A stretch of DNA of 64,000 bases, from positions 32,193,715 through 32,257,714 of the forward strand of contig OU452200.1 in NCBI GenBank assembly GCA_911728435.2, read 5' to 3'. Shown here one piece after another: positions 623 to 57,300 of the stretch. This stretch comes from Apoderus coryli (Eukaryota > Arthropoda > Insecta > Coleoptera > Attelabidae). The notes beneath the pieces are model-generated. The model searched no databases and had not been told where the DNA came from. It saw only the letters and a program-made list of their open reading frames with translations. The position numbers were made by a program, and so were the translations under genes. Position 1 is the stretch's first letter; each line of letters opens with the position of its first letter.

Positions 623-1462
623 ATGGATTTAGATTCTGTTCCGGAAAATCAAAAACAATTGTGTAACCTTCTTCTAAAAGCTATACAACATCAAACTGAA
701 GAAATATCGGTTAAAATTGATTCAGTCACAACCACATTCAGTTCCAGTCTAAACGAAACTAAAAAAGAAGTCGAATTATTAAAACAAAAATGCTGTAAAC
801 TTGAAAAGAGACTAAGAAGAAATAATATTGTAATTTTCGGTTTAAGTCACTTGGGTCTCAGTACTCAGGAACTTTTAAGTCATTCTATTGATTCATTAAA
901 CAATATTCTAAAAACAGATATTAAAGTGTGTGATATTAATGATGTGTACAGACTGGGTAAAGCTGAGACGGCTCCTGTCCTCTTGGAATTTGTATCGGCT
1001 TTAAAAAAACGCGTCTTGTTTGATAATAAGGAACTCCTAAAAAAATTTAACGAAAAGGGTATATCGATCTCAAATGATTTAACACCTAGTGAGCGGGAGG
1101 AACAAAAAACATTAAGAACTCACTTTAAGGAAGCTAAAGCGCAAAAACACGAAGTTAGAATTGTTGGAAATAAATTACGCATAAATGGCACGATGTATAC
1201 TATAGAAGAACTCAAGAATATTGAGTCTTTGAGCTGCGAGTCAGAAGTTGATGAACAACAGAGGGTCGTGACTGATAAAGTGGAAGTACTGATTAACACT
1301 CGTAAACAACCTGAGCTTGAAGAACGGGATACGCCGCAAGGGAAGGATAAACAATCCGTTGTGCAAACTGGGTCGTTCAGTCAGACCAAGAGGAAGAGAC
1401 CCAAGTTTAAATATAGCCCCAAAGTAACCAGGAGTGGTGGTGGAAGAGCTTTACCTAAGTAA
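623..1462 (+). CDS. LINE ORF1 protein (coiled coil plus RNA-binding-like domain)
   Basis: 279-aa ORF1 of the LINE. Residues about 15-65 form a charged, heptad-like coiled coil (LNETKKEVELLKQK, then KLEKRLRRNNIVIFGL), followed by a region resembling the RRM and C-terminal domain of L1-type ORF1 proteins (DVYRLGK, ISNDLTPSEREEQKTLR, VRIVGNKLRINGTMY). The C-terminal 80 residues are polar and basic, ending in a Lys/Arg-rich tail, as expected for nucleic-acid binding. In LINEs, ORF1 proteins bind the element RNA and form the ribonucleoprotein needed for retrotransposition. The frame is open and starts at the first ATG after a non-coding leader; ORF2 follows 42 bases later. Family assignment is by motif and position only. 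Confidence 0.75.
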   Translation: MDLDSVPENQKQLCNLLLKAIQHQTEEISVKIDSVTTTFSSSLNETKKEVELLKQKCCKLEKRLRRNNIVIFGLSHLGLSTQELLSHSIDSLNNILKTDIKVCDINDVYRLGKAETAPVLLEFVSALKKRVLFDNKELLKKFNEKGISISNDLTPSEREEQKTLRTHFKEAKAQKHEVRIVGNKLRINGTMYTIEELKNIESLSCESEVDEQQRVVTDKVEVLINTRKQPELEERDTPQGKDKQSVVQTGSFSQTKRKRPKFKYSPKVTRSGGGRALPK

Positions 1463-1504
1463 ATATTGTTTTGTTGTGATTAACTTAGTTACATCTGTTT
1501 TTTT

Positions 1505-4306: not shown

Positions 4307-4552
4307 AAAAATATTATCAACATTATTTCTTTGTTATTAACTAGAATTTTGTTTCCATTTTTTTTATTATTGTTTATTTATTATTGTTGTAATATTGTTA
4401 GGTTAGCGTAAATTATGTTTTTTTTTCTTTCTCGGGCCTAGATTCAAGATCAGTAGTTATACTGCCATCTAGACCTTTTTGTAGTTCTAGTTTTTTTGGT
4501 AATGTAATAATTATTAGAGTTGTAACTTGTTTTTTTTTTTAACTACAAATAA

Positions 4553-4598
<46 letters not shown>
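4307..4598 (+). repeat. LINE 3' UTR and (TTA)n tail
   Basis: Non-coding 3' UTR of the LINE, T-rich, ending in AACTACAAATAAATTTATT and then about 14 TTA units. The AATAAA-like motif lies just before the repeat. The first minus-strand Dong-type fragment starts directly after this tract, at 4600. Confidence 0.65.
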
Positions 4599-4599
4599 T

Positions 4600-4929
4600 C
4601 AGGTTTTCTCTGTTTTTGCAGGTAAGTATTCTCCACACGGCAGTGCATGCAAGTGTGAAGAATTTTGTTCTGGATTTATATGTTTGTTTTTCTTTTCAGG
4701 TTCCAGTGTTCAATACTTTACGTGCGATGTGGCAGGTTCCTAGGATTGCGATCTTCTGGAGGGTTATAAATAGGGTTGACGGTAAGTTTAAATCCGAGAG
4801 GTATTTGTGGAGTTTTTTTGGAATTTCACCTGTCGCGCCGATGATGATAGGTATAACGATAACTTTTTCTTGTTTCCACAGAGTTTTGATTTCTGATGCT
4901 AAAGGTAAGTATTTGCGGATTTTATTTTA
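4600..4929 (-). mobile_element. Dong/R4-type LINE family D, 5'-truncated 3' end
   Basis: A 330-bp minus-strand fragment lying between two (TTA)n tracts. Read on the minus strand it encodes the C-terminus of a Dong/R4-type protein (see the CDS remnant) followed by a 3' UTR of about 95 bases. The 5' end is cut at the TTA tract at 4930, the normal form of a 5'-truncated LINE insertion. The sequence differs from families A, B and C, so it marks a fourth family. An identical copy lies at 9589-9918. Confidence 0.75.
4696..4921 (-). pseudogene. C-terminal 75 aa of a Dong/R4-type polyprotein (family D)
   Basis: Translating the minus strand from about 4921 gives an open frame of about 75 codons ending in TGA at 4696-4698. 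It contains KYLPLASEIKTLW, VIPIIIGATGEIPKKL, LQKIAILGTCHIARKVL, which lines up with the C-termini of the other families here: A (VPIIISVTGLIGKNL, SVILESCRIMRKTL), B (IPIILSSIGVIPKNL, AAILQSLNIVRSFL) and C (LPVVLGATGTVSCSL, TAILGTSHIVRKIL). This is the end of the endonuclease/C-terminal domain. There is no start codon; it is a fragment. Confidence 0.75.
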
Positions 4930-4954
4930 TTATTATTATTATTATTATTATTAT

Positions 4955-5131
4955 CATATCTCAGCTTTATCCACTGGTTTATTTCTTATCCACCCGGGAA
5001 ACTATCCGGTTTCCAAAGGGTGGTTGGTTTTATGATAATATTTTGCGCACTATATGAGAAGTTCCTAGAATTGCTGTTTTTTGAAGATCTAAAATGGAGT
5101 GTTGACCTGGTATTTCGTCTATGAATTTTTG
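4955..5131 (-). mobile_element. Dong/R4-type LINE family C, 3' fragment
   Basis: 177 bp matching the 3' end of the longer family C copy at 22428-23160 almost base for base, with (TTA)n on both sides. It encodes the last 33 codons (FIDEIPG to HIVRKILS, stop at 5030-5032) and the 3' UTR. Similarity stops at 5131 with a few extra bases before the next TTA tract. A short 5'-truncated insertion. Confidence 0.75.
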
Positions 5132-5134
5132 CAA

Positions 5135-5170
<36 letters not shown>

Positions 5171-5223
5171 CATATCTCAGCTTTATCCACTGGTTTATTT
5201 CTTATCCACCCGGGAAACTATCC

Positions 5224-5224
<1 letters not shown>
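5171..5224 (-). mobile_element. Family C 3' terminal fragment, 54 bp
   Basis: Only the last 54 bases of the family C 3' UTR (the same CATATCTCAGCTTTATCC start as at 4955 and 22428), again with (TTA)n on both sides. An extremely short 5'-truncated insertion. Confidence 0.7.
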
Positions 5225-5253
<29 letters not shown>

Positions 5254-5255
<2 letters not shown>

Positions 5256-5478
5256 TTTTTTTTTTTACATCCTTCTACTTTCTTCCAGATAGGAGAAATT
5301 CTGCAGTGGGGTTTGATAACCAATCACTACAGATTTGTTTTAACACGGTAAGTACTTCTAGGATTTCATTAAGTATGCTTCAGATATTATTAATAAGTAT
5401 ATACTTTTTCTTTAAATAGGGGAGGGAATCAAGGTACGTATTTAAAACTTATATTTATTTATCATTCATTTACTTTTT

Positions 5479-5509
<31 letters not shown>

Positions 5510-8500
5510 CAGATGTCCAACTTTTTATCCGCTGCCTTTATACTCTATTCAGGCAGGTTTAGGGTTTTTCTCATGATTCTACATGACTCAAGGATCACCG
5601 ATCTTTGCATCAATGTTGTTATGTTTCGCTGATCAATGTCTATTTGTTTCAGAAAGCGTGGCAGGTTTTTCCCAATCAGTCCCGTCACTGATATTATAAT
5701 AGGAACAGTAAGTACCTTGTCCAGTTTATAAATATTCTTAAATTCCGTACAAAGGTCTTGATACTTATTTATTTTTTCTTTCTCTTTATTTAGGAGGTTG
5801 TGGTCAGCCGGGTGAGAAATATCGACGAAGTAAGCAGTCTTATTTTTCCGGTCTACCAGGGTTATGTCAGGACGATTACTTGCGATAGGTCTATCTGTGA
5901 TTATTGGGAAATCCCAATAAAGTTTATAATTATCGTTTTGTAAAAACGGGAATGGGTTGTATAGAAAATATTTTTCTTTTTTCTCTATAAGTTTGCATTG
6001 TACGGCTATTTCCTGATGAATTATTCCTGCTGTTAAATTATGCCTTTTTGTATATTCTGTGGGCGCTAAGCTGCTGCACGCTGAGAGGATATGTTCCGTT
6101 GTTTCTGATTTGGCGAAACACATTCTACACTTATCATTTTCAATTGGAATTTTCTGTATGTATTTTTGGTAGTTTCTGGTGGGCGTTACTCCGTCCTGTA
6201 TTGATACCAGAAAACCCTCGGTTTCCGCGAACAATAGTCCATGTTTTAGCCACATGGTTGACAACTCTGCATCTGCCTGAGATAGGGCATACGGATATTT
6301 TCCATGCAACGATTTTTCTAGCCATTGTTCTCTTATGTGGTCATTAGTAAGTGTTTCGCGCATGGTGTTATTGCTGAGCTGTAGAGGTGAATAATAATCC
6401 AGTCGCTTGACTTGACGGTGTAATGGCGATAGGAGAGATTTTCTGTTAAAGTAGGTTTTTAGTAGATTAATTTGTCTATCGCATAGTCGGTGTAGGTCTA
6501 GTAGTCCTCTTCCGCCCACATTTCTTGGTAAGTATAAACGTTCAGTACATGCATGGGGATGGTGGCACCTATATTCTGTTAGCAAAACTCTAATTTTTCT
6601 ATTCATTGCTTCAATGCTTGTCTTAGACCACCTGATTATTCCAAAGGAATAAGATAACACTGGCAATGCATACGTATTTATGGCTTTGATTTTGTTTTTA
6701 CCAGTTAGTTCTGATCTTAGGATTTTTCTTATTCTATCAACCATTTTTTGTTCCGTGTTTTCTATTATATTTTTTTGATCTAAAACCAATTTTTGGTTAT
6801 AGCCGAGGTATTTGTAGTAATCATTGTTTAGGTATCTGAATGTTTCGCTATTTTCTAAATTTTCGTAAGTTTGTAACTTTCCCTTTTGAGCTACTAATTT
6901 TGCACATTTATCAAAACCCAACCTCATTTTGATGTCAAGACTGAACTTTTGTGTCGTCTCAATAAGTCTGTCTAATTGTTTCTCTGTTGATGCATAGAGT
7001 TTGAGGTCATCTACATAAAATAAATGATTTATTGTATAATCACTATCCTCATACCTCAGTGTATATCCTATTCTAGTGTCTTTTAACATATTTGAGAGTG
7101 GGTTCAGGCACAACACAAACCAAAAAGGGCTTAGGGAATCTCCCTGAAATATGCCACTCTGGATCGGTATTTCATCCGTTACTATATTTGTTTTTTCCGT
7201 TTTAACTACGAGTTTCGTTCTCCAGGTTTTCATTGCTGTGGCTAAAAAATTTATTATATTTGGGCTGATTTTGTAAAGTTTTAGTACATCTATTAACCAA
7301 GAATGTGGAACACTATCAAAGGCTTTCTGATAATCGATCCATGCCACTGCCATATTTTTGTTTCTCTTTTTAGCATCTTGTGTAACTATAGAGTCGATCA
7401 CCAATTGTTCCTTGCTTCCTAATGTACCATGCCGACAACCCTTTTGCTCTTCAGTTAAGATTCCAGAGTCTTCAATGTGCTTGATTATTTTTTGACTTAG
7501 AATTGAGGTGATTATTTTATACAAAGTGGGTAGACACGTTATGGGTCGATAGTTTTTTGGGTTAGTTGTATCTCCTTTTTTAGGTATCATTGAGGTAATT
7601 CCTTTCGTTAAAAATTTAGGATGATATGTGTTGTTTGTCAGTAGTTCATTAATTTGTTTTGTAAGCAACTTTGTGATATTTATATTTTTCCACCAATAGT
7701 TATGAACATGATCCACCCCCGGTGCTTTCCAGTTGTGTGATCTATTTAAAGCGTTCTTAACTTCAGTCTCAGTTATTGGACTAATCTCCATGTCTATTAA
7801 TGTGTCGTATTTCTTTTTTTTCCGTTTTAAGCCATGATGCCTTTTGATTGTATTGTTGTTTGGATGCCCATACGTTTTTCCAAAATGTTTGTAGTTGTTC
7901 CTTGTCTGGTCCCTGTTCAATTGGTGGTTCATTATTAAGTTTTTTGTAGAACTCTTTCTCGTTATTCTTAAACAGTTTGTTGTCATTTTTTCGTTTGTAA
8001 CTTTTATTGTATCGTCTCAGCCGGTTTCCCAGTGCTGCTATTTGTTGTTTTATTTTTTCTTTAAATGTTTCCTTCTCTTGGTAATTTGAGTGCTGAATAT
8101 TGTTTTTCCTAAAATAGTAATGTATATCGTTAGATAATTTGGTGCTCATGTTACCTCTCTCCCAATCTCGTATCTTTGTTAGCCAACTTCTTAACGTTTT
8201 TATTTTTTGTTCTATACGTTCTCTCCATTTGGGTTCCTTCTTGGCCTTTTGCTTTTTTCCCAATTTAACTCCCATAGATTCAATAACTGTTTTTGCAGCG
8301 GTGTAGACAAGTGTCTGTGTTTCCTCCAGATTGCTAGTTGGCATATATTTAAGGATTTCCTGGTTTACTATTGATATTAGCTGTTTTGTTTTTTTTGTTG
8401 GTTTTATTTTTGGTAAGCTAAGCCGTTTTTCTGGATCAGAGTTCTTAAAAACCGCGATGTTCTCCTGGAATCTCACTACAACATCATTTACATTCTCACC

Positions 8501-9556
8501 CGCATCCAGATCCACATTCAGTGCAAGGTTATTTTGTATGTTTATTGTTTGCGTATTGCTCTCATTTGTTTGTTCATAAATTATTGTGTTATCAGTTTCT
8601 ATACCTTGATCCGTCTCAGACATATTCTGTTTCAATTCCTCTATATCAACAGCAGTAAGCAAATTATGAGTTTTTATTGCATATAGTTGATTTGCTAGTT
8701 GGTTTTCGTTTAAAATTAAATCCGGTCTTATTTTTCTCCATTCTAATAGCATATTTTTTCTAAATCCTCGTTTTTGTGTTTCAAATTGGGTCCCCAGAAA
8801 GTACGCTCTGAAAACGTCCAGATTATCATTTCTGGACCATGTTCTTCTAGCGCCGCGATCAGCCTCGTGAGGGACTTCAACATTTTGTCGGGTCATTCTC
8901 TTATTGTTTTGAGACAGATTCCATTCCTGGGATTCCAATTGTTCTTTGGAGATTATGGTTTCTTGCGTTTGGTTTGTATTTCTAGTATTTATTGTTTCCT
9001 CCCGGGGATTCTTCGCACCCTGTGACCATTGAAGGTCTGCCGGGGACTCAGGGCCATTTTTATTTGAGCTCATCATTATTTGTTTTCTCCTTAAATGCAG
9101 GCTTCTACTGCAGGTTAAAGGGAACCCTAAACCTATTCTTATCCGGGTTTAGACGGATATAAAATTGGTAGGACGGCAGGAAGTATGTACAGGGATGTTC
9201 CATATACTGAAGGTAAGTTTGAATATAGAAGGGAGGTGAGGTAAGTATGGTGGTAGTGGGGTAAGGTAAGTAGGTAATGGAATGTGGGTAGTAAAGGGTA
9301 TCGGACAACCACATGGGGCTATTCTTATTTGGTCCGGACCCCACACGGACTAAGCTGACTTTTACGTACCCCTGTCACTGGTAAGTATTGTCAACCTCAG
9401 GTTTATTTTTATTTACTGTGGATCCCAACCCGGATGGGACAGAAAAACCGAAAAATTCGGTTGGAGCTGTTGCGCCGAGCTCCTGCGACAACTGAGGTGC
9501 GCGGGATCGTCACACCCGTAGATATTGCTGCTGTCACCCAACATATCTCCTCTGCG

Positions 9557-9558
<2 letters not shown>
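5254..9558 (-). mobile_element. Dong/R4-type LINE family A, copy 1 (full length)
   Basis: About 4.3 kb on the minus strand: 5' UTR (9077-9558), a single long ORF (5545-9076, broken by one base), and a 3' UTR (5254-5544) ending in an A-run followed by (TAA)n. Tracts of (TTA)n flank both ends. There is no APE domain; the endonuclease is the restriction-like type behind RT, as in R2, R4 and Dong. Dong elements are known to insert in TAA repeats, which fits the flanks. No 28S rDNA sequence is seen nearby, so this is not an rDNA insertion. Confidence 0.85.
5545..9076 (-). pseudogene. Family A polyprotein (RT plus restriction-like endonuclease), one frameshift
   Basis: Same protein as in copies 2 and 3 (about 1176 aa), split by one extra T in a T-run near 7809-7817 (eight T here, seven in copies 2 and 3). 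The total length, 3532 bases, is 3 x 1177 + 1. Features by residue from the 9076 start: basic N-terminal domain about 75-150, RT about 445-720 with KAPGVDH, YRPITCLPTLYK, WIDYQKAFDSVPH (about 579), GIFQGDSLSPFW (about 640) and YVDD (about 687); CRMC-X7-H-X4-C knuckle about 982; endonuclease RPDITLVDRKNKTAYFVDIS about 1066. It would nick TAA-repeat DNA and copy its RNA there. Apart from the single base the frame is open. Confidence 0.85.
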
Positions 9559-9587
<29 letters not shown>

Positions 9588-9588
9588 T
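9559..9588. repeat. (TTA)n tract between duplicated units
   Basis: About ten ATT units joining the 5' end of family A copy 1 (GCGCA at 9554-9558) to the second D fragment. It takes the place that the LINE tail holds in front of the first unit. Confidence 0.8.
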
Positions 9589-9918
9589 CAGGTTTTCTCT
9601 GTTTTTGCAGGTAAGTATTCTCCACACGGCAGTGCATGCAAGTGTGAAGAATTTTGTTCTGGATTTATATGTTTGTTTTTCTTTTCAGGTTCCAGTGTTC
9701 AATACTTTACGTGCGATGTGGCAGGTTCCTAGGATTGCGATCTTCTGGAGGGTTATAAATAGGGTTGACGGTAAGTTTAAATCCGAGAGGTATTTGTGGA
9801 GTTTTTTTGGAATTTCACCTGTCGCGCCGATGATGATAGGTATAACGATAACTTTTTCTTGTTTCCACAGAGTTTTGATTTCTGATGCTAAAGGTAAGTA
9901 TTTGCGGATTTTATTTTA
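9589..9918 (-). mobile_element. Family D 3' fragment, second copy
   Basis: Copy of 4600-4929 at offset 4989, with the C-terminal coding remnant at 9685-9910 (minus, stop at 9685-9687). No difference from the first copy was noticed by eye. Confidence 0.75.
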
Positions 9919-9943
9919 TTATTATTATTATTATTATTATTAT

Positions 9944-10120
9944 CATATCTCAGCTTTATCCACTGGTTTATTTCTTATCCACCCGGGAAACTATCCGGTT
10001 TCCAAAGGGTGGTTGGTTTTATGATAATATTTTGCGCACTATATGAGAAGTTCCTAGAATTGCTGTTTTTTGAAGATCTAAAATGGAGTGTTGACCTGGT
10101 ATTTCGTCTATGAATTTTTG
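9944..10120 (-). mobile_element. Family C 3' fragment, second copy
   Basis: Copy of 4955-5131 at offset 4989; coding remnant 10019-10120 on the minus strand. (TTA)n on both sides. Confidence 0.75.
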
Positions 10121-10123
10121 CAA

Positions 10124-10159
<36 letters not shown>

Positions 10160-10213
10160 CATATCTCAGCTTTATCCACTGGTTTATTTCTTATCCACCC
10201 GGGAAACTATCCG
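10160..10213 (-). mobile_element. Family C 54-bp terminal fragment, second copy
   Basis: Copy of 5171-5224 at offset 4989, between TTA tracts. Confidence 0.7.
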
Positions 10214-10239
10214 TATTATTATTATTATTATTATTATTA

Positions 10240-13200
10240 TTTTTTTTTTTTTACATCCTTCTACTTTCTTCCAGATAGGAGAAATTCTGCAGTGGGGTTT
10301 GATAACCAATCACTACAGATTTGTTTTAACACGGTAAGTACTTCTAGGATTTCATTAAGTATGCTTCAGATATTATTAATAAGTATATACTTTTTCTTTA
10401 AATAGGGGAGGGAATCAAGGTACGTATTTAAAACTTATATTTATTTATCATTCATTTACTTTTTTCTTTTTTTTTTTTTTTTTTTTTTTTTTTTCAGATG
10501 TCCAACTTTTTATCCGCTGCCTTTATACTCTATTCAGGCAGGTTTAGGGTTTTTCTCATGATTCTACATGACTCAAGGATCACCGATCTTTGCATCAATG
10601 TTGTTATGTTTCGCTGATCAATGTCTATTTGTTTCAGAAAGCGTGGCAGGTTTTTCCCAATCAGTCCCGTCACTGATATTATAATAGGAACAGTAAGTAC
10701 CTTGTCCAGTTTATAAATATTCTTAAATTCCGTACAAAGGTCTTGATACTTATTTATTTTTTCTTTCTCTTTATTTAGGAGGTTGTGGTCAGCCGGGTGA
10801 GAAATATCGACGAAGTAAGCAGTCTTATTTTTCCGGTCTACCAGGGTTATGTCAGGACGATTACTTGCGATAGGTCTATCTGTGATTATTGGGAAATCCC
10901 AATAAAGTTTATAATTATCGTTTTGTAAAAACGGGAATGGGTTGTATAGAAAATATTTTTCTTTTTTCTCTATAAGTTTGCATTGTACGGCTATTTCCTG
11001 ATGAATTATTCCTGCTGTTAAATTATGCCTTTTTGTATATTCTGTGGGCGCTAAGCTGCTGCACGCTGAGAGGATATGTTCCGTTGTTTCTGATTTGGCG
11101 AAACACATTCTACACTTATCATTTTCAATTGGAATTTTCTGTATGTATTTTTGGTAGTTTCTGGTGGGCGTTACTCCGTCCTGTATTGATACCAGAAAAC
11201 CCTCGGTTTCCGCGAACAATAGTCCATGTTTTAGCCACATGGTTGACAACTCTGCATCTGCCTGAGATAGGGCATACGGATATTTTCCATGCAACGATTT
11301 TTCTAGCCATTGTTCTCTTATGTGGTCATTAGTAAGTGTTTCGCGCATGGTGTTATTGCTGAGCTGTAGAGGTGAATAATAATCCAGTCGCTTGACTTGA
11401 CGGTGTAATGGCGATAGGAGAGATTTTCTGTTAAAGTAGGTTTTTAGTAGATTAATTTGTCTATCGCATAGTCGGTGTAGGTCTAGTAGTCCTCTTCCGC
11501 CCACATTTCTTGGTAAGTATAAACGTTCAGTACATGCATGGGGATGGTGGCACCTATATTCTGTTAGCAAAACTCTAATTTTTCTATTCATTGCTTCAAT
11601 GCTTGTCTTAGACCACCTGATTATTCCAAAGGAATAAGATAACACTGGCAATGCATACGTATTTATGGCTTTGATTTTGTTTTTACCAGTTAGTTCTGAT
11701 CTTAGGATTTTTCTTATTCTATCAACCATTTTTTGTTCCGTGTTTTCTATTATATTTTTTTGATCTAAAACCAATTTTTGGTTATAGCCGAGGTATTTGT
11801 AGTAATCATTGTTTAGGTATCTGAATGTTTCGCTATTTTCTAAATTTTCGTAAGTTTGTAACTTTCCCTTTTGAGCTACTAATTTTGCACATTTATCAAA
11901 ACCCAACTTCATTTTGATGTCAAGAGTGAACTTTTGTGTCGTCTCAATAAGTCTGTCTAATTGTTTCTCTGTTGATGCATAGAGTTTGAGGTCATCTACA
12001 TAAAATAAATGATTTATTGTATAATCACTATCCTCATACCTCAGTGTATATCCTATTCTAGTGTCTTTTAACATATTTGAGAGTGGGTTCAGGCACAACA
12101 CAAACCAAAAAGGGCTTAGGGAATCTCCCTGAAATATGCCACTCTGGATCGGTATTTCATCCGTTACTATATTTGTTTTTTCCGTTTTAACTACGAGTTT
12201 CGTTCTCCAGGTTTTCATTGCTGTGGTTAAAAAATTTATTATATTTGGGCTGATTTTGTAAAGTTTTAGTACATCTATTAACCAAGAATGTGGAACACTA
12301 TCAAAGGCTTTCTGATAATCGATCCATGCCACTGCCATATTTTTGTTTCTCTTTTTAGCATCTTGTGTAACTATAGAGTCGATCACCAATTGTTCCTTGC
12401 TTCCTAATGTACCATGCCGACAACCCTTTTGCTCTTCAGTTAAGATTCCAGAGTCTTCAATGTGCTTGATTATTTTTTGACTTAGAATTGAGGTGATTAT
12501 TTTATACAAAGTGGGTAGACACGTTATGGGTCGATAGTTTTTTGGGTTAGTTGTATCTCCTTTTTTAGGTATCATTGAGGTAATTCCTTTCGTTAAAAAT
12601 TTAGGATGATATGTGTTGTTTGTTAGTAGTTCATTAATTTGTTTTGTAAGCAACTTTGTGATATTTATATTTTTCCACCAATAGTTATGAACATGATCCA
12701 CCCCCGGTGCTTTCCAGTTGTGTGATCTATTTAAAGCGTTCTTAACTTCAGTCTCAGTTATTGGACTAATCTCCATGTCTATTAATGTGTCGTATTTCTT
12801 TTTTTCCGTTTTAAGCCATGATGCCTTTTGATTGTATTGTTGTTTGGATGCCCATACGTTTTTCCAAAATGTTTGTAGTTGTTCCTTGTCTGGTCCCTGT
12901 TCAATTGGTGGTTCATTATTAAGTTTTTTGTAGAACTCTTTCTCGTTATTCTTAAACAGTTTGTTGTCATTTTTTCGTTTGTAACTTTTATTGTATCGTC
13001 TCAGCCGGTTTCCCAGTGCTGCTATTTGTTGTTTTATTTTTTCTTTAAATGTTTCCTTCTCTTGGTAATTTGAGTGCTGAATATTGTTTTTCCTAAAATA
13101 GTAATGTATATCGTTAGATAATTTGGTGCTCATGTTACCTCTCTCCCAATCTCGTATCTTTGTTAGCCAACTTCTTAACGTTTTTATTTTTTGTTCTATA

Positions 13201-14542: not shown

Positions 14543-14568
14543 ATTATATATTATTATTATTTATTATT
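14543..14568. repeat. Short irregular (TTA)n tract / family B 3' tail
   Basis: ATTATATATTATTATTATTTATTATT, an imperfect TTA tract joining the 5' end of A copy 2 to the 3' end of family B. The stop codon of the B ORF (14557-14559) lies within it. Confidence 0.75.
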
Positions 14569-17500
14569 AGCATTGCCAACAGCCAAGAAAGATCTCACAA
14601 TGTTGAGAGATTGCAGTATCGCAGCTTTCTGCATCTCCTCAATTACGGTAATAGGGATTTGAATCATTTTTAGGTTCTTTTCCAAATTTTTCGGTATTAC
14701 TCCTATCGACGATAGTATTATAGGTATTATGTACACTTCCCTCATATTCCAGATGCGCTTTATTTCATGTTGAAGCGCTTGATATTTGTTTAATTTTTCC
14801 GTATGTTTTTGTTGCAGATTGTGTGTTCCTGGTATAGAAACATCAATTAGATATGTTGTGTGTTTTTTCTTGTCTATTAATGTAATATCAGGACGGTTGT
14901 GTTCTATTGTATGATCGGTGTAAATTGTTTTGTCCCAATATATTTTAAATTGATCGTTTTCCTCAACTTCGTTTGGCACATATTTGTAGTAGGGGACAAT
15001 TTCGGTTTTCATTTTTCTGTCTATCAGTATTTTCTGATGGATTATATGTGCTACTTGATTGTGTCGAGTCAAGTACTTCGTATTTGCTAGTGTGTTACAG
15101 GATCCCAAAATATGATCTATAGTTTCGGAAACAGCTCCGCACTTGCGGCATTTATCAGAACTCAGGTCTTCTCCCAGTATGTATTTGGCGTAATTTCGTG
15201 TTTTTATAACTTGGTCCTGCGTGGCCATTAAGAATCCTTCAGTTTCAGGATGGAGGTAACCTTTTGTAGCCCACATAAAAGAGAGGGATTTGTCAACGTA
15301 ATTGTTTTGAACGGAGTTGTAAAATCTTCCATGGAGTTGCTTTCCTGACCACATCCTAATTTTATCCTCGTTGGTAGTAATGTGTGTTTTTGGGTTATAT
15401 TCTCGGGATTTTAAATTAAGTGTGGTCAAATTTTTATCTGCCTCGATCACTGCACGGTACATCGGTTTATCCGAGTTTTTGTAAAAATATTTTCTAATAT
15501 TATCCAGCTGTTCATAGTACATTGCTTTAACATCTTTTAAACCTCTACCTCCCAGGCATCTAGGCAATGTGACTCTCTCAGTGCATGCATTTGGGTGATG
15601 CATTCTTTTGTGCGTTAGAAGTGTTCTGATTCGTCTATTTAGTGCATCAAGATCTGTATCAGACCATCTGATTATGCCAAAGGAATGGGTTAAGGCAGAT
15701 ATTGCATATGTGTTTATAGCCTTAACGATATTTTTTGAGTTTAGTTTTGTTTTGATAATTAGCTTAACTCGCTTTTCAAATTCAGTAGACAGTTTCGATT
15801 TCATCGTTGTATGTTCTATTTTATGGGTCTGATCTATACCCAGGTATTTATAGGGTTCTTCAATACCTTGTATGACGACCTCGTTGTTAATTTCTATAGG
15901 TTGTGACTCTTTAAGTACCCCTTTGACCATTTTGATCGTGCGGCACTTCTCCAGTCCAAAAGTCATACCTATGTCCGAACTCATATCATGCACCAGCTTT
16001 AGCATGGCTCTCAGCTGTCTGTCATTTGCTGCATATACTTTTAGGTCATCAACATAGAAAAGGTGACTTACTAAGAGATCCTGTACATTATTTTTTAATT
16101 TTACTCCATACTCTGTTTTCTTAAGAGTGTTTGAAATTGGGTTTAGAGACAGACAAAACCATAGGGCACTGAGCGAATCCCCCTGAAAGATACCTCTGCG
16201 CAGAGGTATGCTCCCGCTAAATACTAGTTCGTTATTTATTTTTTGAGACAGTGTGGTTCGCCAGGCCCTCATAGTTGTCTCAAGAAAAAGTATAAGCGTA
16301 GGATGTACTTTATACAGTGTCAATACAAATTTGAGCCAAGAGTGAGGGACAGAGTCAAATGCTTTTTTATAGTCGATGTATGCAATGTGTGCATTTCTCT
16401 GCCCCACCCTCAACTGCTGCATAACTACGGAATCGACAACCAGCTGCTCCTTGCATCCCATAACGTTGCGTCTAGCACCTTTCTGCTCATCTGTCATCAC
16501 TTGAGCCAGTTCCAGGTGGTCTTCAAGTTTAGCACATAATATCGACGTAAGGATCTTATAAAGGGTCGGCAAGCATGTAATGGGACGAAACAACGAAGGG
16601 TGATCCGGGTTATCAGTCTTTGGAATTAAATAAGTAAGTCCTTCAGTTAAAAATGTTGGAAAGTTGTTAGGAAATCTAATGACATCGTTGAAATTGTTAA
16701 CTAAGAGTTCATGACAAGCTGTGAATCGTTTATACCAAAAGCTATGCAAGCCATCGCGTCCGGGCGCTTTCCAATTTGCAATTTTCTTTAAAGCAGCTGT
16801 TAGATCTGCTTGGGTTATTACAATTTCATTCATTGGTTGTAGAGAGTTCTGTGCTTTCATTTCTTGGTTTATCCAAGTATTTTTTGTATGGTTATTGCTC
16901 TGTGACCATATACTCGTCCAGTAGTTGGTCTGACTTTCAAGATCTGGGGGGTTAAGGTTATCATATTTTTTTGATAGTGATGAGTAAAACGCCTTTTCAT
17001 TGTTCGAAAATAGGCTGTTGTCTCTGCGTCTTGAGTAACTTTCTCTGTATCTCTTTAATCGAGCTGAGTATGCTGCTAACTTTTGTTTAAGTGTATCAAG
17101 GTATGTACGCACTTTATTTTCCGTTTCGGCATTGATTGTTTGTATAATGTCTTTTAAGTCTGTCGGCAGTGTTCTAAGCAATCTGTTGTTTCTATTTCCG
17201 TCGTGGTACTGTTGAGTTTTACCGATACTCCTTCGTAGGCCATTAATTTTATTGGTGAGGCGGCGTTGCCATGATGGTAAATACCCATCTGTATTTTTTT
17301 TGTTAGGTGATGTATATTTTTGATTAAGGCTCACTACGGTAATTGCCGCGCAATATATCGTGGAATGTACCTCTTCAAGATTCATACCATCGTTTAGCGT
17401 TTGTTCTAGGATGGAATTGGCTCTATTTATAAGTGTTCCTGTGTTCTTGTTAAATCTAAGTTTTTGTATGGGAGGTCTAACGTTAGGGTCCATTCCAAGG

Positions 17501-18156
17501 TATTTCAGTAAGTTAGCATGGTAAGTATTAAGTATTTCGTCCTCTTGGTGGGGCTCTTGAGGAATCTCTATATCTATGTTATTGAATGGTGAACCACGTG
17601 GCGAATCTGAGGGTGTATGGGTACCATAAACATTGTCATCCTCAAAAGACTGATTGGGCGTATGAGGTATATTTAGTTCCTCCCTCACTCTGTCTAAAAT
17701 ATACTGAATTTCAATTTGGGTTAATAGATTGTTTCTCTGTATTGCTCTACGCTGATCGGATAGGCGTTGTGCTGTAATATCATTGTGTTCTGGATGTTCA
17801 GCAGCAAACATATTCTTTAGTCTATCCCTATAATCAGTAAAATCCGTTTCGAGGCTTGTGGCTATGAAGTAGTAGCGCATGACATCCTTATTCAAGTTAG
17901 TACTCCATCTCATGCGTCTACTGCGTCCAGGAGCTATGGGGGGAGGATTATCCTCCCTAACATTGGCTGCTGGTTGTGGGTCAGCTGGTGGTATTTCCAC
18001 ATTATTGCTGTTGGCTGTAGTTTCTTGAGCGATAGGTGCCCGCCTATTCAGCAACCTACCACCAACGGATCGCATACTGCCACGTCCAGCGTTGGCTCCA
18101 GACGTGCCCTGGGGCATTCCAGGCTGCCGCATTCTTTCATTTCTCCTTTGACTCAT
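14557..18156 (-). CDS. Family B reverse transcriptase/restriction-like endonuclease, 1199 aa
   Basis: Intact ORF. Pro/Arg-rich N-terminus; conserved basic domain about 85-160 (RRMRWSTNLNKDVMRYYF, DQRRAIQRNNLLTQIEI), matching the same block in family A; RT with WKAPGRDGLHSFW, FRPITCLPTLYK, YIDYKKAFDSVPHSWL (about 591), GIFQGDSLSALWF and YVDD (about 700); knuckle CRKC-X7-H-X4-C at about 1002; endonuclease RPDITLIDKKKHTTYLIDVS at about 1086; C-terminus IPIILSSIGVIPKNLE. The last codons (A-N-N-K-stop) come from the TAA-repeat tail: AAT AAT AAA TAA. No N-terminal Cys/His finger is seen. The start is the ATG before SQRRNERMRQPGM; no longer open frame lies upstream. Probably a competent retrotransposon protein. 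Confidence 0.9.
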   Translation of the reverse strand: MSQRRNERMRQPGMPQGTSGANAGRGSMRSVGGRLLNRRAPIAQETTANSNNVEIPPADPQPAANVREDNPPPIAPGRSRRMRWSTNLNKDVMRYYFIATSLETDFTDYRDRLKNMFAAEHPEHNDITAQRLSDQRRAIQRNNLLTQIEIQYILDRVREELNIPHTPNQSFEDDNVYGTHTPSDSPRGSPFNNIDIEIPQEPHQEDEILNTYHANLLKYLGMDPNVRPPIQKLRFNKNTGTLINRANSILEQTLNDGMNLEEVHSTIYCAAITVVSLNQKYTSPNKKNTDGYLPSWQRRLTNKINGLRRSIGKTQQYHDGNRNNRLLRTLPTDLKDIIQTINAETENKVRTYLDTLKQKLAAYSARLKRYRESYSRRRDNSLFSNNEKAFYSSLSKKYDNLNPPDLESQTNYWTSIWSQSNNHTKNTWINQEMKAQNSLQPMNEIVITQADLTAALKKIANWKAPGRDGLHSFWYKRFTACHELLVNNFNDVIRFPNNFPTFLTEGLTYLIPKTDNPDHPSLFRPITCLPTLYKILTSILCAKLEDHLELAQVMTDEQKGARRNVMGCKEQLVVDSVVMQQLRVGQRNAHIAYIDYKKAFDSVPHSWLKFVLTLYKVHPTLILFLETTMRAWRTTLSQKINNELVFSGSIPLRRGIFQGDSLSALWFCLSLNPISNTLKKTEYGVKLKNNVQDLLVSHLFYVDDLKVYAANDRQLRAMLKLVHDMSSDIGMTFGLEKCRTIKMVKGVLKESQPIEINNEVVIQGIEEPYKYLGIDQTHKIEHTTMKSKLSTEFEKRVKLIIKTKLNSKNIVKAINTYAISALTHSFGIIRWSDTDLDALNRRIRTLLTHKRMHHPNACTERVTLPRCLGGRGLKDVKAMYYEQLDNIRKYFYKNSDKPMYRAVIEADKNLTTLNLKSREYNPKTHITTNEDKIRMWSGKQLHGRFYNSVQNNYVDKSLSFMWATKGYLHPETEGFLMATQDQVIKTRNYAKYILGEDLSSDKCRKCGAVSETIDHILGSCNTLANTKYLTRHNQVAHIIHQKILIDRKMKTEIVPYYKYVPNEVEENDQFKIYWDKTIYTDHTIEHNRPDITLIDKKKHTTYLIDVSIPGTHNLQQKHTEKLNKYQALQHEIKRIWNMREVYIIPIILSSIGVIPKNLEKNLKMIQIPITVIEEMQKAAILQSLNIVRSFLAVGNANNK

Positions 18157-18283
18157 CTTTCATAGAAAATGGTGTGCGTTTTATGGCTACCGCCAGCCAA
18201 TTGGGGTTAGGGAAAGGTGTTTGGTAGTGCAAAGGACACTAGGAGTAGGATACTAGGTGGGTATTGGGACAGCTGGACAGCTG

Positions 18284-18430
18284 GACGTACTGACTGTACC
18301 GTTTACGCATTACGGTAGCGGTGGGTATGCCCCAACCGGTCAGACATTGCGTCCCTGGCTGTACAGTCTACGTCGTTACTGTAGCGGTAAGTATACTGTT
18401 GGCTGCAGTACCTTTTCCGGCCAGACATAT
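18284..18430 (-). repeat. Two diverged repeats in the family B 5' UTR
   Basis: Read on the plus strand, 18284-18348 and 18357-18430 each contain a chain of similar words in the same order: GTAC...TGTAC/GTACAG, a TAC-GTA run with TACTGTAGCGGT or TACGGTAGCGGT, then GGTATGCC/GGCTGCAGTACC and CCGGTCAGACAT or CCGGCCAGACAT. They look like a partial tandem duplication at the 5' end of the element, where LINE promoters and, in the R2 group, ribozymes lie. By eye only. Confidence 0.45.
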
Positions 18431-18453
18431 TTTATTATTATTATTATTATTAT

Positions 18454-18455
<2 letters not shown>
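18431..18455. repeat. (TTA)n tract
   Basis: TTTATTATT... tract separating the 5' end of family B from the 3' tail of family A copy 3. Confidence 0.8.
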
Positions 18456-18491
<36 letters not shown>

Positions 18492-21400
18492 TCCTTCTAC
18501 TTTCTTCCAGATAGGAGAAATTCTGCAGTGGGGTTTGATAACCAATCACTACAGATTTGTTTTAACACGGTAAGTACTTCTAGGATTTCATTAAGTATGC
18601 TTCAGATATTATTAATAAGTATATACTTTTTCTTTAAATAGGGGAGGGAATCAAGGTACGTATTTAAAACTTATATTTATTTATCATTCATTTACTTTTT
18701 TCTTTTTTTTTTTTTTCAGATGTCCAACTTTTTATCCGCTGCCTTTATACTCTATTCAGGCAGGTTTAGGGTTTTTCTCATGATTCTACATGACTCAAGG
18801 ATCACCGATCTTTGCATCAATGTTATGTTTCGCTGATCAATGTCTATTTGTTTCAGAAAGCGTGGCAGGTTTTTCCCAATCAGTCCCGTCACTGATATTA
18901 TAATAGGAACAGTAAGTACCTTGTCCAGTTTATAAATATTCTTAAATTCCGTACAAAGGTCTTGATACTTATTTATTTTTTCTTTCTCTTTATTTAGGAG
19001 GTTGTGGTCAGCCGGGTGAGAAATATCGACGAAGTAAGCAGTCTTATTTTTCCGGTCTACCAGGGTTATGTCAGGACGATTACTTGCGATAGGTCTATCT
19101 GTGATTATTGGGAAATCCCAATAAAGTTTATAATTATCGTTTTGTAAAAACGGGAATGGGTTGTATAGAAAATATTTTTCTTTTTTCTCTATAAGTTTGC
19201 ATTGTACGGCTATTTCCTGATGAATTATTCCTGCTGTTAAATTATGCCTTTTTGTATATTCTGTGGGCGCTAAGCTGCTGCACGCTGAGAGGATATGTTC
19301 CGTTGTTTCTGATTTGGCGAAACACATTCTACACTTATCATTTTCAATTGGAATTTTCTGTATGTATTTTTGGTAGTTTCTGGTGGGCGTTACTCCGTCC
19401 TGTATTGATACCAGAAAACCCTCGGTTTCCGCGAACAATAGTCCATGTTTAAGCCACATGGTTGACAACTCTGCATCTGCCTGAGACAGGGCATACGGAT
19501 ATTTTCCATGCAACGATTTTTCTAGCCATTGTTCTCTTATGTGGTCATTAGTAAGTGTTTCGCGCATGGTGTTATTGCTGAGCTGTAGAGGTGAATAATA
19601 ATCCAGTCGCTTGACTTGACGGTGTAATGGCGATAGGAGAGATTTTCTGTTAAAGTAGGTTTTTAGTAGATTAATTTGTCTATCGCATAGTCGGTGTAGG
19701 TCTAGTAGTCCTCTTCCGCCCACATTTCTTGGTAAGTATAAACGTTCAGTACATGCATGGGGATGGTGGCACCTATATTCTGTTAGCAAAACTCTAATTT
19801 TTCTATTCATTGCTTCAATGCTTGTCTTAGACCACCTGATTATTCCAAAGGAATAAGATAACACTGGCAATGCATACGTATTTATGGCTTTGATTTTGTT
19901 TTTACCAGTTAGTTCTGATCTTAGGATTTTTCTTATTCTATCAACCATTTTTTGTTCCGTGTTTTCTATTATATTTTTTTGATCTAAAACCAATTTTTGG
20001 TTATAGCCGAGGTATTTGTAGTAATCATTGTTTAGGTATCTGAATGTTTCGCTATTTTCTAAATCTTCGTAAGTTTGTAACTTTCCCTTTTGAGCTACTA
20101 ATTTTGCACATTTATCAAAACCCAACCTCATTTTGATGTCAAGACTGAACTTTTGTGTCGTCTCAATAAGTCTGTCTAATTGTTTCTCTGTTGATGCATA
20201 GAGTTTGAGGTCATCTACATAAAATAAATGATTTATTGTATAATCACTATCCTCATACCTCAGTGTATATCCTATTCTAGTGTCTTTTAACATATTTGAG
20301 AGTGGGTTCAGGCACAACACAAACCAAAAAGGGCTTAGGGAATCTCCCTGAAATATGCCACTCTGGATCGGTATTTCATCCGTTACTATATTTGTTTTTT
20401 CCGTTTTAACTACGAGTTTCGTTCTCCAGGTTTTCATTGCTGTGGCTAAAAAATTTATTATATTTGGGCTGATTTTGTAAAGTTTTAGTACATCTATTAA
20501 CCAAGAATGTGGAACACTATCAAAGGCTTTCTGATAATCGATCCATGCCACTGCCATATTTTTGTTTCTCTTTTTAGCATCTTGTGTAACTATAGAGTCG
20601 ATCACCAATTGTTCCTTGCTTCCTAATGTACCATGCCGACAACCCTTTTGCTCTTCAGTTAAGATTCCAGAGTCTTCAATGTGCTTGATTATTTTTTGAC
20701 TTAGAATTGAGGTGATTATTTTATACAAAGTGGGTAGACACGTTATGGGTCGATAGTTTTTTGGGTTAGTTGTATCTCCTTTTTTAGGTATCATTGAGGT
20801 AATTCCTTTCGTTAAAAATTTAGGATGATATGTGTTGTTTGTTAGTAGTTCATTAATTTGTTTTGTAAGCAACTTTGTGATATTTATATTTTTCCACCAA
20901 TAGTTATGAACATGATCCACCCCCGGTGCTTTCCAGTTGTGTGATCTATTTAAAGCGTTCTTAACTTCAGTCTCAGTTATTGGACTAATCTCCATGTCTA
21001 TTAATGTGTCGTATTTCTTTTTTTCCGTTTTAAGCCATGATGCCTTTTGATTGTATTGTTGTTTGGATGCCCATACGTTTTTCCAAAATGTTTGTAGTTG
21101 TTCCTTGTCTGGTCCCTGTTCAATTGGTGGTTCATTATTAAGTTTTTTGTAGAACTCTTTCTCGTTATTCTTAAACAGTTTGTTGTCATTTTTTCGTTTG
21201 TAACTTTTATTGTATCGTCTCAGCCGGTTTCCCAGTGCTGCTATTTGTTGTTTTATTTTTTCTTTAAATGTTTCCTTCTCTTGGTAATTTGAGTGCTGAA
21301 TATTGTTTTTCCTAAAATAGTAATGTATATCGTTAGATAATTTGGTGCTCATGTTACCTCTCTCCCAATCTCGTATCTTTGTTAGCCAACTTCTTAACGT

Positions 21401-22378
21401 TTTTATTTTTTGTTCTATACGTTCTCTCCATTTGGGTTCCTTCTTGGCCTTTTGCTTTTTTCCCAATTTAACTCCCATAGATTCAATAACTGTTTTTGCA
21501 GCGGTGTAGACAAGTGTCTGTGTTTCCTCCAGATTGCTAGTTGGCATATATTTAAGGATTTCCTGGTTTACTATTGATATTAGCTGTTTTGTTTTTTTTG
21601 TTGGTTTTATTTTTGGTAAGCTAAGCCGTTTTTCTGGATCAGAGTTCTTAAAAACCGCGATGTTCTCCTGGAATCTCACTACAACATCATTTACATTCTC
21701 ACCCGCATCCAGATCCACATTCAGTGCAAGGTTATTTTGTATGTTTATTGTTTGCGTATTGCTCTCATTTGTTTGTTCATAAATTATTGTGTTATCAGTT
21801 TCTATACCTTGATCCGTCTCAGACATATTCTGTTTCAATTCCTCTATATCAACAGCAGTAAGCAAATTATGAGTTTTTATTGCATATAGTTGATTTGCTA
21901 GTTGGTTTTCGTTTAAAATTAAATCCGGTCTTATTTTTCTCCATTCTAATAGCATATTTTTTCTAAATCCTCGTTTTTGTGTTTCAAATTGGGTCCCCAG
22001 AAAGTACGCTCTGAAAACGTCCAGATTATCATTTCTGGACCATGTTCTTCTAGCGCCGCGATCAGCCTCGTGAGGGACTTCAACATTTTGTCGGGTCATT
22101 CTCTTATTGTTTTGAGACAGATTCCATTCCTGGGATTCCAATTGTTCTTTGGAGATTATGGTTTCTTGCGTTTGGTTTGTATTTCTAGTATTTATTGTTT
22201 CCTCCCGGGGATTCTTCGCACCCTGTGACCATTGAAGGTCTGCCGGGGACTCAGGGCCATTTTTATTTGAGCTCATCATTATTTGTTTTCTCCTTAAATG
22301 CAGGCTTCTACTGCAGGTTAAAGGGAACCCTAAACCTATTCTTATCCGGGTTTAGACGGATATAAAATTGGTAGGACG

Positions 22379-22379
<1 letters not shown>
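18456..22379 (-). mobile_element. Dong/R4-type LINE family A, copy 3 (5' UTR truncated)
   Basis: Third family A element. The 3' end has a long T-run (minus-strand A tail); the T-run before the CAG at 18719 is shorter than in copies 1 and 2. The 5' end stops at 22379 (GGTAGGACGG followed by TATTATT), about 380 bases short of the 5' end in copies 1 and 2. The ORF is complete. Its neighbours differ from those of copies 1 and 2, so it is an independent insertion. Confidence 0.85.
18752..22279 (-). CDS. Family A reverse transcriptase/restriction-like endonuclease, 1175 aa
   Basis: Intact ORF with the same domains as copy 2: N-terminal basic domain, RT (KAFDSVPH, GIFQGDSLSPFW, YVDD), CRMC knuckle, RPDITLVDRKN endonuclease, C-terminal VTGLIGKNLP. 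One codon is missing near the C-terminus relative to the other copies (RNITLMQ against RNITTLMQ). It shares with copy 1 several residues in which copy 2 differs (SQNNKR, FLATAM, FSLDIKMRLG), and has YEDLEN where the others have YENLEN. The high similarity of all copies points to recent activity of the family. Confidence 0.9.
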   Translation of the reverse strand: MMSSNKNGPESPADLQWSQGAKNPREETINTRNTNQTQETIISKEQLESQEWNLSQNNKRMTRQNVEVPHEADRGARRTWSRNDNLDVFRAYFLGTQFETQKRGFRKNMLLEWRKIRPDLILNENQLANQLYAIKTHNLLTAVDIEELKQNMSETDQGIETDNTIIYEQTNESNTQTINIQNNLALNVDLDAGENVNDVVVRFQENIAVFKNSDPEKRLSLPKIKPTKKTKQLISIVNQEILKYMPTSNLEETQTLVYTAAKTVIESMGVKLGKKQKAKKEPKWRERIEQKIKTLRSWLTKIRDWERGNMSTKLSNDIHYYFRKNNIQHSNYQEKETFKEKIKQQIAALGNRLRRYNKSYKRKNDNKLFKNNEKEFYKKLNNEPPIEQGPDKEQLQTFWKNVWASKQQYNQKASWLKTEKKKYDTLIDMEISPITETEVKNALNRSHNWKAPGVDHVHNYWWKNINITKLLTKQINELLTNNTYHPKFLTKGITSMIPKKGDTTNPKNYRPITCLPTLYKIITSILSQKIIKHIEDSGILTEEQKGCRHGTLGSKEQLVIDSIVTQDAKKRNKNMAVAWIDYQKAFDSVPHSWLIDVLKLYKISPNIINFLATAMKTWRTKLVVKTEKTNIVTDEIPIQSGIFQGDSLSPFWFVLCLNPLSNMLKDTRIGYTLRYEDSDYTINHLFYVDDLKLYASTEKQLDRLIETTQKFSLDIKMRLGFDKCAKLVAQKGKLQTYEDLENSETFRYLNNDYYKYLGYNQKLVLDQKNIIENTEQKMVDRIRKILRSELTGKNKIKAINTYALPVLSYSFGIIRWSKTSIEAMNRKIRVLLTEYRCHHPHACTERLYLPRNVGGRGLLDLHRLCDRQINLLKTYFNRKSLLSPLHRQVKRLDYYSPLQLSNNTMRETLTNDHIREQWLEKSLHGKYPYALSQADAELSTMWLKHGLLFAETEGFLVSIQDGVTPTRNYQKYIQKIPIENDKCRMCFAKSETTEHILSACSSLAPTEYTKRHNLTAGIIHQEIAVQCKLIEKKEKYFLYNPFPFLQNDNYKLYWDFPIITDRPIASNRPDITLVDRKNKTAYFVDISHPADHNLLNKEKEKINKYQDLCTEFKNIYKLDKVLTVPIIISVTGLIGKNLPRFLKQIDIDQRNITLMQRSVILESCRIMRKTLNLPE

Positions 22380-22427
<48 letters not shown>
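22380..22427. repeat. (TTA)n tract, about 16 units
   Basis: Uninterrupted TAT/TTA repeat between the truncated 5' end of A copy 3 and the 3' end of family C. Confidence 0.9.
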
Positions 22428-23160
22428 CATATCTCAGCTTTATCCACTGGTTTATTTCTTATCCACCCGGGAAACTATCCGGTTTCCAAAGGGTGGCTGG
22501 TTTTATGATAATATTTTGCGCACTATATGAGAAGTTCCTAGAATTGCTGTTTTTTGAAGATCTAAAATGGAGTGTTTACCTGGTATTTCGTCTATGAATT
22601 TTTGGAGTGAGCAGGATACAGTGCCAGTAGCACCGAGGACCACGGGCAAGATTTTAGTTTTCGTGTTCCACATTCGCTTTATTTCTATCTCAAGATCCCT
22701 ATATTTCATTATTTTCTCTGTTTCCTTCTTATTAATGTTCTTATCCGTTGGAATAGAAACGTCAATTATATAGCACATTTCGTTTGTTTTAATAATTATA
22801 TCAGGTTTGTTACAGTGTATTGTTCTGTCCGTTATCACAGGTTGGTTCCAAAGAATTGTTGTTCGGCCACACTCTGAACTTGTGACGTCTTTAGGAGCGT
22901 GTTTATACCACTTCTCGGTTTCAAGAGTTACGCCCAGGCTCCTACAAATATTGAAATGCAATTGTGTGCAAACTCTGTCGTGGCGAGATATGTATTCACG
23001 GGCCGCTAAGATGGGACACCCTGAGAGAATATGATCTATAGTCTCGTCATATTGCTTGCACATTCGGCATTTTGCGTTTGTTGTATTCTTAAATATATTT
23101 TTCTTTATGTAATTAGTGGTAAGTGCTTGATCTTGGAGTTTTAAAGAGTTAAAAGACACT
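22428..23160 (-). mobile_element. Dong/R4-type LINE family C, 5'-truncated
   Basis: Longest copy of family C: 3' UTR (22428-22502) and the last 218 codons. It joins a fragment of an unrelated APE-type LINE at about 23160 without a TTA tract, unlike the other junctions. Confidence 0.8.
22503..23159 (-). pseudogene. Family C C-terminal domain: CCHC knuckle and restriction-like endonuclease
   Basis: 218 codons, open to the stop at 22503-22505. Contains the knuckle CRMCKQYDETIDHILSGC (CX2CX7HX4C), the endonuclease block KPDIIIKTNEMCYIIDVS and the conserved C-terminus LPVVLGATGTVSCSL, TAILGTSHIVRKILS. RT is missing, so the first ATG (23159) is only an internal methionine or a junction product. 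In a full element this part cuts the target DNA. Clearly a truncated copy. Confidence 0.8.
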
Positions 23161-57220: not shown

Positions 57221-57300
57221 CCGTGACACATGTGGGATTTGAACCCACATCTCCCGGTTTCAGATCAGGTGTTTTACCAAATAAACTACCGTAGCACATG
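57221..57300 (-). mobile_element. tRNA-derived SINE-like sequence 1
   Basis: Minus strand: GGTAGTTTATTTGGTAAAAC (D-arm and A box), CCTGATCTGAAACCGGG (anticodon arm with a mismatch and no U33), TGTGGGTTCAAATCCCACA (perfect 6-bp T stem and B box). The acceptor arms pair poorly (GTGCTAC against GTGTCAC). Close to a tRNA but with key defects; its neighbour at 57518 shares most of it, which favours a SINE family. Confidence 0.55.

Follow-up and report, generated by a model that had tools for sequence, protein, structure and literature searches.

At least four families of retrotransposons insert in (TTA)n tracts, many of them the tails of other elements, in a weevil genome

Anatomy of the array

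The window, a 64,000-nt stretch of contig C7 in the 428-Mb, 129-contig genome of the weevil Apoderus coryli, contains an array of eleven retrotransposon pieces, all on the minus strand: three of family A, one of B, five of C and two of D. They follow one another in the order D, C, C, A, D, C, C, A, B, A, C up to position 23136, and neighbouring pieces are separated by (TTA)n tracts of about 27–48 nt. TTA meets all eleven 3′ ends and ten of the eleven 5′ ends; the sole exception is the right-hand C, the 5′ end of which adjoins non-TTA DNA at 23136. Before the A copies, a T-run, complementary to a poly(A) tail, lies between the tract and the element. At its left border the array starts in the tail of a fifth element, E, located on the plus strand. 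The features are as follows.

623–4551, plus strand: family E, an APE-type LINE with broken frames (EEP and RVT_1 domains), ending in AATAAA and then (TTA)n, the landing pad; its left limit marks where the first ORF begins rather than a mapped 5′ end
4555–4598: (TTA)n tract, the tail of E and 3′ junction of D copy 1
4599–4921, minus strand: D copy 1, 3′ end only, 5′-truncated (full-length relative, L061)
4922–4954: (TTA)n tract
4955–5136, minus strand: C piece, 5′-truncated
5137–5170: (TTA)n tract
5171–5224, minus strand: C piece, 54 nt
5225–5266: (TTA)n tract followed by the T-run that complements the poly(A) tail of A copy 1
5267–9557, minus strand: A copy 1, full length, its frame split across two overlapping ORFs
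9558–9587: (TTA)n tract
9588–10252, minus strand: duplicated block, with the second D (9588–9910), C (9944–10125) and C (10160–10213), TTA tracts and T-run
10253–14541, minus strand: A copy 2, full length, closing the duplicated block; ORF 10530–14060, 1176 aa (RVT_1, E 5.8e-30)
14542–14568: imperfect TTA tract, source of the stop codon of the adjacent B copy
14569–18427, minus strand: B copy with full 5′ end and without 3′ UTR; ORF 14557–18156, 1199 aa (RVT_1, E 4.2e-25)
18428–18488: (TTA)n tract followed by the T-run of A copy 3
18489–22379, minus strand: A copy 3, 5′ non-coding part truncated; ORF 18752–22279, 1175 aa (RVT_1, E 8.5e-30)
22380–22427: (TTA)n tract
22428–23136, minus strand: C piece, 5′-truncated, right border of the array, 5′ end in non-TTA DNA

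The first-pass annotation, made from the window alone, had counted the same pieces, nearly all flanked by TTA, and that tally stands. It had also spoken of at least ten stacked insertions. Eleven pieces are indeed present, but the D-C-C-A block at 4599–9557 recurs at 9588–14541 with 99.76% identity over 4959 nt, a duplication the annotation had already noticed. Four of the eleven pieces thus derive from one tandem duplication, and the array represents about seven independent insertions, not eleven. Its (TTA)n tracts total 372 nt, or 247 nt when the four tracts of the second block are left out.

Other copies of B end in a 3′ UTR with a poly(A) tail. The B copy of the window, at 14542–14580, has no 3′ UTR, and its reading frame is closed by a stop codon within the TTA tract. 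This end looks like the product of priming inside the transcript at a TAA-like stretch.

The non-coding parts of A, B and D (14061–14541, 10248–10529, 18157–18427 and 9588–9910) contain nine antisense occurrences of the perfect splice-donor string GGTAAGT, compared with 0.117 expected from base composition and none on the sense strand. In sense, the site reads ATACTTACC, which we take to resemble the 5′ end of U1 snRNA. The string may act as an antisense splicing signal or as a mimic of U1. A gathering-level Rfam scan found one match, a tRNA gene outside the array at 57224–57295 on the minus strand. At a permissive threshold, Rfam yielded only a poor CrcZ match, on the A-rich stretch, which was rejected.

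Families A–D and their TTA junctions

Pfam identifies RVT_1 in the single long ORFs of A copies 2 and 3 and B, and also in D and C pieces, these two families being known only from interrupted frames. The RT and the region downstream of it resemble R2 proteins, which are the best matches of B among solved structures (E 1.2e-18 to 6.5e-17). A CCHC motif is present in the C-terminal part of A, B, C and D, as in 57 of 77 homologues, and is followed in all four families by [RK]PD-x12-14-D, a PD-(D/E)XK-like endonuclease motif; the scripted pattern, [RK]PD-x11-13-[DE], caught only C and one of the 77 homologues, and the A, B and D spacing (PD-x14-D) was read from translations. A domain search found no EEP (APE endonuclease) domain in A or B. 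With an RT, a CCHC and the endonuclease motif, and with no APE domain in A or B, A–D are classified from sequence as RLE-type (R2-group) non-LTR retrotransposons. Pfam hits to zf-RVT and L_protein_N on a C piece and on D and C ORFs were below curated cut-offs and were not used.

Pairwise identity among A–D is 35–39%, and in a tree of 81 rows each is nearest to a homologue of another source. On these comparisons, A, B, C and D are evidently separate lineages. The name Dong/R4 is likely to apply to A–D, which in the tree are compared with unnamed homologues; the R4/Dong trait of insertion in (TAA)n is seen at the A and B junctions. B has 82 homologues, many of them lepidopteran, together with unnamed metagenome entries. 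The B copies are very young, as 40 of 40 scored matches are 100% identical over at least 392 nt, making live insertion plausible.

Further families lie beside the arrays: F (L034, L050 and L114), with a Dong-like N-terminal region, and G (L027 and L100), which resembles C near its 3′ end. At L061, positions 1769–3092 split the two ORF parts of the full-length D copy and contain a 164-aa ORF of unknown kind.

Among the copies examined, 28 of 30 A and all 29 B have two or more units (at least 6 nt) of TTA at the 3′ junction, compared with 4.3% of 4000 random positions; the B sample omits the window copy, which has no 3′ UTR. At a threshold of 9 nt the counts are 26/30 and 28/29, against a background of about 0.4%. 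Solitary B copies were sampled as the first 20 of 36, five of which are also among the 29; by script, 19 of the 20 have at least 6 nt of TTA, and 18 of the 20 after inspection by eye, which showed L115 not to be TTA. The other end of the element behaves in the same way: among all 59 exact matches to the full-length B 5′ end, 55 are followed within 20 nt by at least 6 nt of TTA (background 5.6%) and 52 by at least 9 nt (background 0.4%). Exceptions outside TTA include the solitary copies L115 and L121 and the four B 5′ ends without two TTA units. C and D junctions were read in L061–L063, in the window copies and at a few neighbours, and the A and B rates apply to A and B alone. The excess of TTA at both ends that the first-pass annotation had expected from genome-wide flanks, as opposed to copies lying in random sequence without TTA, is therefore borne out.

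In A and B, a T-run lies between the element and the TTA (26 to 85 nt long in B), and the 3′ ends of C and D pass directly into (TAA)n, without poly(A). This direct junction of C and D would suit an origin of the TTA in a (UAA)n tail of the element RNA rather than in the target. We consider that origin unlikely: TTA is present at 5′ ends too; in A and B the T-run separates the element from the TTA, so their RNA does not end in this repeat; and solitary copies lie within the TTA of LINE tails, a type of tail that bears TTA without any insertion.

Copies across the genome

A pattern search of 3′ ends, allowing up to two mismatches, yielded 110 A, 141 B, 58 C and 56 D copies. Our map takes in 100 of the 110 A, 100 of the 141 B and all C and D copies, 314 in total, and the counts below refer to these listed copies. 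Linked at 10 kb, they form 155 sites, with 218 of the 314 falling in 59 multi-copy clusters. At least two families are present in 52 of the 59 clusters and all four in six; the largest site, on C5, holds 15 listed copies. All 159 neighbouring pairs are on the same strand. Co-occurrence of several families in one tract, which the first-pass annotation had proposed to count, is far above chance among the listed copies, and because the same arrangement recurs genome-wide, a chance arrangement in the window is excluded.

Uniform placement of the copies gives a mean of 5.4 clustered copies and at most 20 in 1000 runs. A more demanding null admits only TTA tracts of at least 30 nt as targets, of which there are about 566 genome-wide, a figure extrapolated from one 20-Mb stretch (33 tracts within the first 100 of 1716 listed matches). 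Under this null, a mean of 133 and at most 164 copies are clustered, compared with the 218 seen, and no site exceeds 7 copies, compared with 15. The 40 scored copies of family E (of 203 candidates) form no cluster.

Dense arrays and AT-rich junctions are also what would be expected if there were no TTA targeting and the elements merely piled up in AT-rich, heterochromatic or otherwise safe regions. Such accumulation is hardly credible here, given the tracts of at least 9 nt at A and B 3′ junctions and B 5′ ends against a background of about 0.4%, the complete strand concordance of neighbours, which a regional bias does not predict, and the unclustered E copies. A centromere or telomere role of the arrays was set aside, given their many internal positions.

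At 21 of 30 loci in each of A and B, the left neighbour is another A–D copy, with many different break points; in the six truncated B neighbours of A, no two break points coincide. These junctions bear on the alternative that tandem or segmental duplication, together with unequal exchange between TTA tracts, did most of the array building in place of repeated insertion. Duplication has clearly operated on the 4959-nt block of the window, and the alternation of A and B at a spacing of about 8.3 kb in some arrays could also arise in this way. However, neighbours are not alike from one array to the next, be it in family, in break point or in the lengths of the T-run and of the TTA: B copies to the left of A break at 2101, 2331, 2685, 3353, 3504, 3751 or near the full 5′ end, and B T-runs range widely. 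Removing the duplicated pieces of the window still leaves 214 of 310 copies clustered. The distinct junctions largely refute duplication as the main builder of the arrays, and we hold it to be improbable. An assembly artefact was also considered and, from the assembled sequence, is improbable, the junctions again varying from array to array.

The neighbour orders AB and BA are slightly above expectation, BD is seen 0 times versus 9.2 expected and DD 16 times versus 6.2 expected. We do not build on a neighbour preference: C and D are represented by short pieces, and the DD count can be raised by duplication. D is found more often 3′ than 5′ of A and B (DA 9 and DB 7, versus AD 3 and BD 0), a placement that would fit growth of arrays from one end. 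In the same genome, COX1 gave 93 matches outside or including the mitochondrial contig C129, with many nuclear mitochondrial fragments. The mitochondrial COX1 protein shares 98% identity with that of Apoderus jekelii, which points to a leaf-rolling weevil (Attelabidae) or a close relative as host.

Origin and probable renewal of the TTA target

The E element from which the window array starts has EEP endonuclease and RVT_1 domains in its ORFs at 1505–2410 and 2391–3629, and ends in AATAAATTTATTATTA. So do all 20 E copies fetched from elsewhere, which were selected from the copies whose match extends to the query's 3′ end; their tails consist of 6–48 nt of exact TTA (median 21) followed by differing DNA, and one of the 20, L075, has a C inside its TTA tail. 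Similar evidence comes from sites of other elements. Where the left flank is not an A–D copy, seven of ten tested ORFs beside it contain RVT_1 on the convergent strand, and AATAAA lies within 40 nt to the left of the tract at 13 of 20 solitary B sites, compared with 7.4% of random positions. Landing pads are often the (TTA)n tails of convergent APE-type LINEs. At least four families of jumping genes insert in runs of TTATTATTA, many of which are the 3′ tails of other LINEs, a point that goes beyond the first-pass annotation.

Insertions that did no more than split a tract would leave ever shorter tracts in larger arrays. Instead, mean tract length is 13.1, 19.6, 21.2 and 21.8 nt at sites of 1, 2–3, 4–6 and at least 7 copies, respectively (rho +0.38, p 0.0009, 74 A and B junctions, with site sizes being lower bounds), a positive correlation that an insertion preference for long tracts may also give. 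Target duplications are visible at four sites only, as none can be seen inside pure TTA. At three of them the duplication holds the tract: 124 nt plus tract at L008, 12 nt plus tract at L033 and 21 nt plus tract at L040; at L014/L027 it abuts the tract without holding it. These data support TTA as a product of insertion and not just a split target, total TTA increasing with the number of insertions, with the source of the new TTA seen at three sites only; duplication is probably its usual source. The first-pass view of TTA as both target and product, and hence of a self-propagating landing pad common to several lineages, is supported in this form.

We propose the following mechanism. On insertion at sites around the genome, APE-type LINEs would leave 3′ tails of (TTA)n. 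There, the TTA-rich strand would be nicked by the enzymes of at least four RLE lineages, and target-primed reverse transcription would begin from the nick, which would lie on the plus strand within ...TTATT. In A and B, priming would occur on the poly(A) tail, giving the T-run right after the TTA; in C and D, it would lead straight into the repeat. A second-strand cut offset from the first would duplicate the target including the tract, such that the new copy is flanked by TTA at both ends and the tract can be reused, resulting in same-strand, multi-lineage, head-to-tail arrays. The position of the nick and the chemistry are what we infer. What we observe is TTA at both ends, strand concordance, stacking above the TTA-limited null, pads formed by LINE tails, tract lengths that do not fall and four target duplications. 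It is very probable that LINE tails often serve as the target of several RLE (Dong-like) lineages and that insertion renews them.

Parts of this system have precedents. Dong of Bombyx mori was found inserted in (TAA)n of the rDNA spacer (PMC2887409), with a 5′ junction to TAA repeats (PMC3774820), and DongAg and DongBg lie in microsatellites (PMC3636483). The weevil elements are like these members of the R4 clade in being RLE-type LINEs in (TAA)n, but differ in having one target for several lineages, often a tail that belongs to another LINE, and in forming arrays. An HDV-like ribozyme is reported for Dong and R4 (PMC3774820), whereas none was found by Rfam at the 5′ ends of A and B or in L061, nor by a crude HDV-like descriptor, run without a positive control, on A, B and D. 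Several RLE LINE families of the Utopia type share U2 snRNA gene arrays (PMC4640811) and can, as here, occupy the same array; their target is a gene copy, whereas that of the weevil is a microsatellite tail seemingly renewed by insertion. R2 resembles the weevil elements in its RT and downstream region (best E for B, 1.2e-18) and in its C-terminal CCHC, but targets 28S rDNA rather than a TTA microsatellite, and A, as read from its translation, shows no zinc-finger cysteine pair before the RT. SART1 and TRAS1 form stacked arrays. They too are LINEs in a short tandem repeat, telomeric (TTAGG)n (PMC7265360), whereas the weevil pads are dispersed through chromosomes and derived from LINE tails. 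Lastly, RTE LINEs generate microsatellites in Lepidoptera, another case of a LINE 3′ end making simple repeats genome-wide; there, insertion into pre-existing repeats is reasoned not to raise repeat abundance (PMC2887409), a view against which the target duplications and tract lengths of the weevil speak.

TAA targeting (Dong), a shared target array (Utopia) and LINE-made microsatellites are therefore already known. The shared, self-renewing niche in LINE tails looks like a novel variation on these. Neither a Dong-like array in LINE tails nor the union of TAA targeting, shared arrays, LINE-made repeats and target renewal was met in a literature search that missed most subscription journals.

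The usual view of site-specific LINEs is that they depend on a repeat of the host and that the host determines how many copies of it there are. In the weevil, the target of some retrotransposons is provided by another, and seems to be restored by the elements that use it. A single genome thus allows array growth to be measured, along with competition for targets and the co-existence of lineages. The finding also bears on microsatellite expansion, to which insertion into existing repeats has been held to add nothing (PMC2887409). We lean, by a little, towards a two-tier ecology in which APE-type LINEs make (TTA)n tails and at least six RLE lineages (A–D, F and G) share and re-create them, so that arrays grow without a limit set by a host target. 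If true, this ecology would be a dispersed, self-renewing counterpart of the rDNA or telomere niches.
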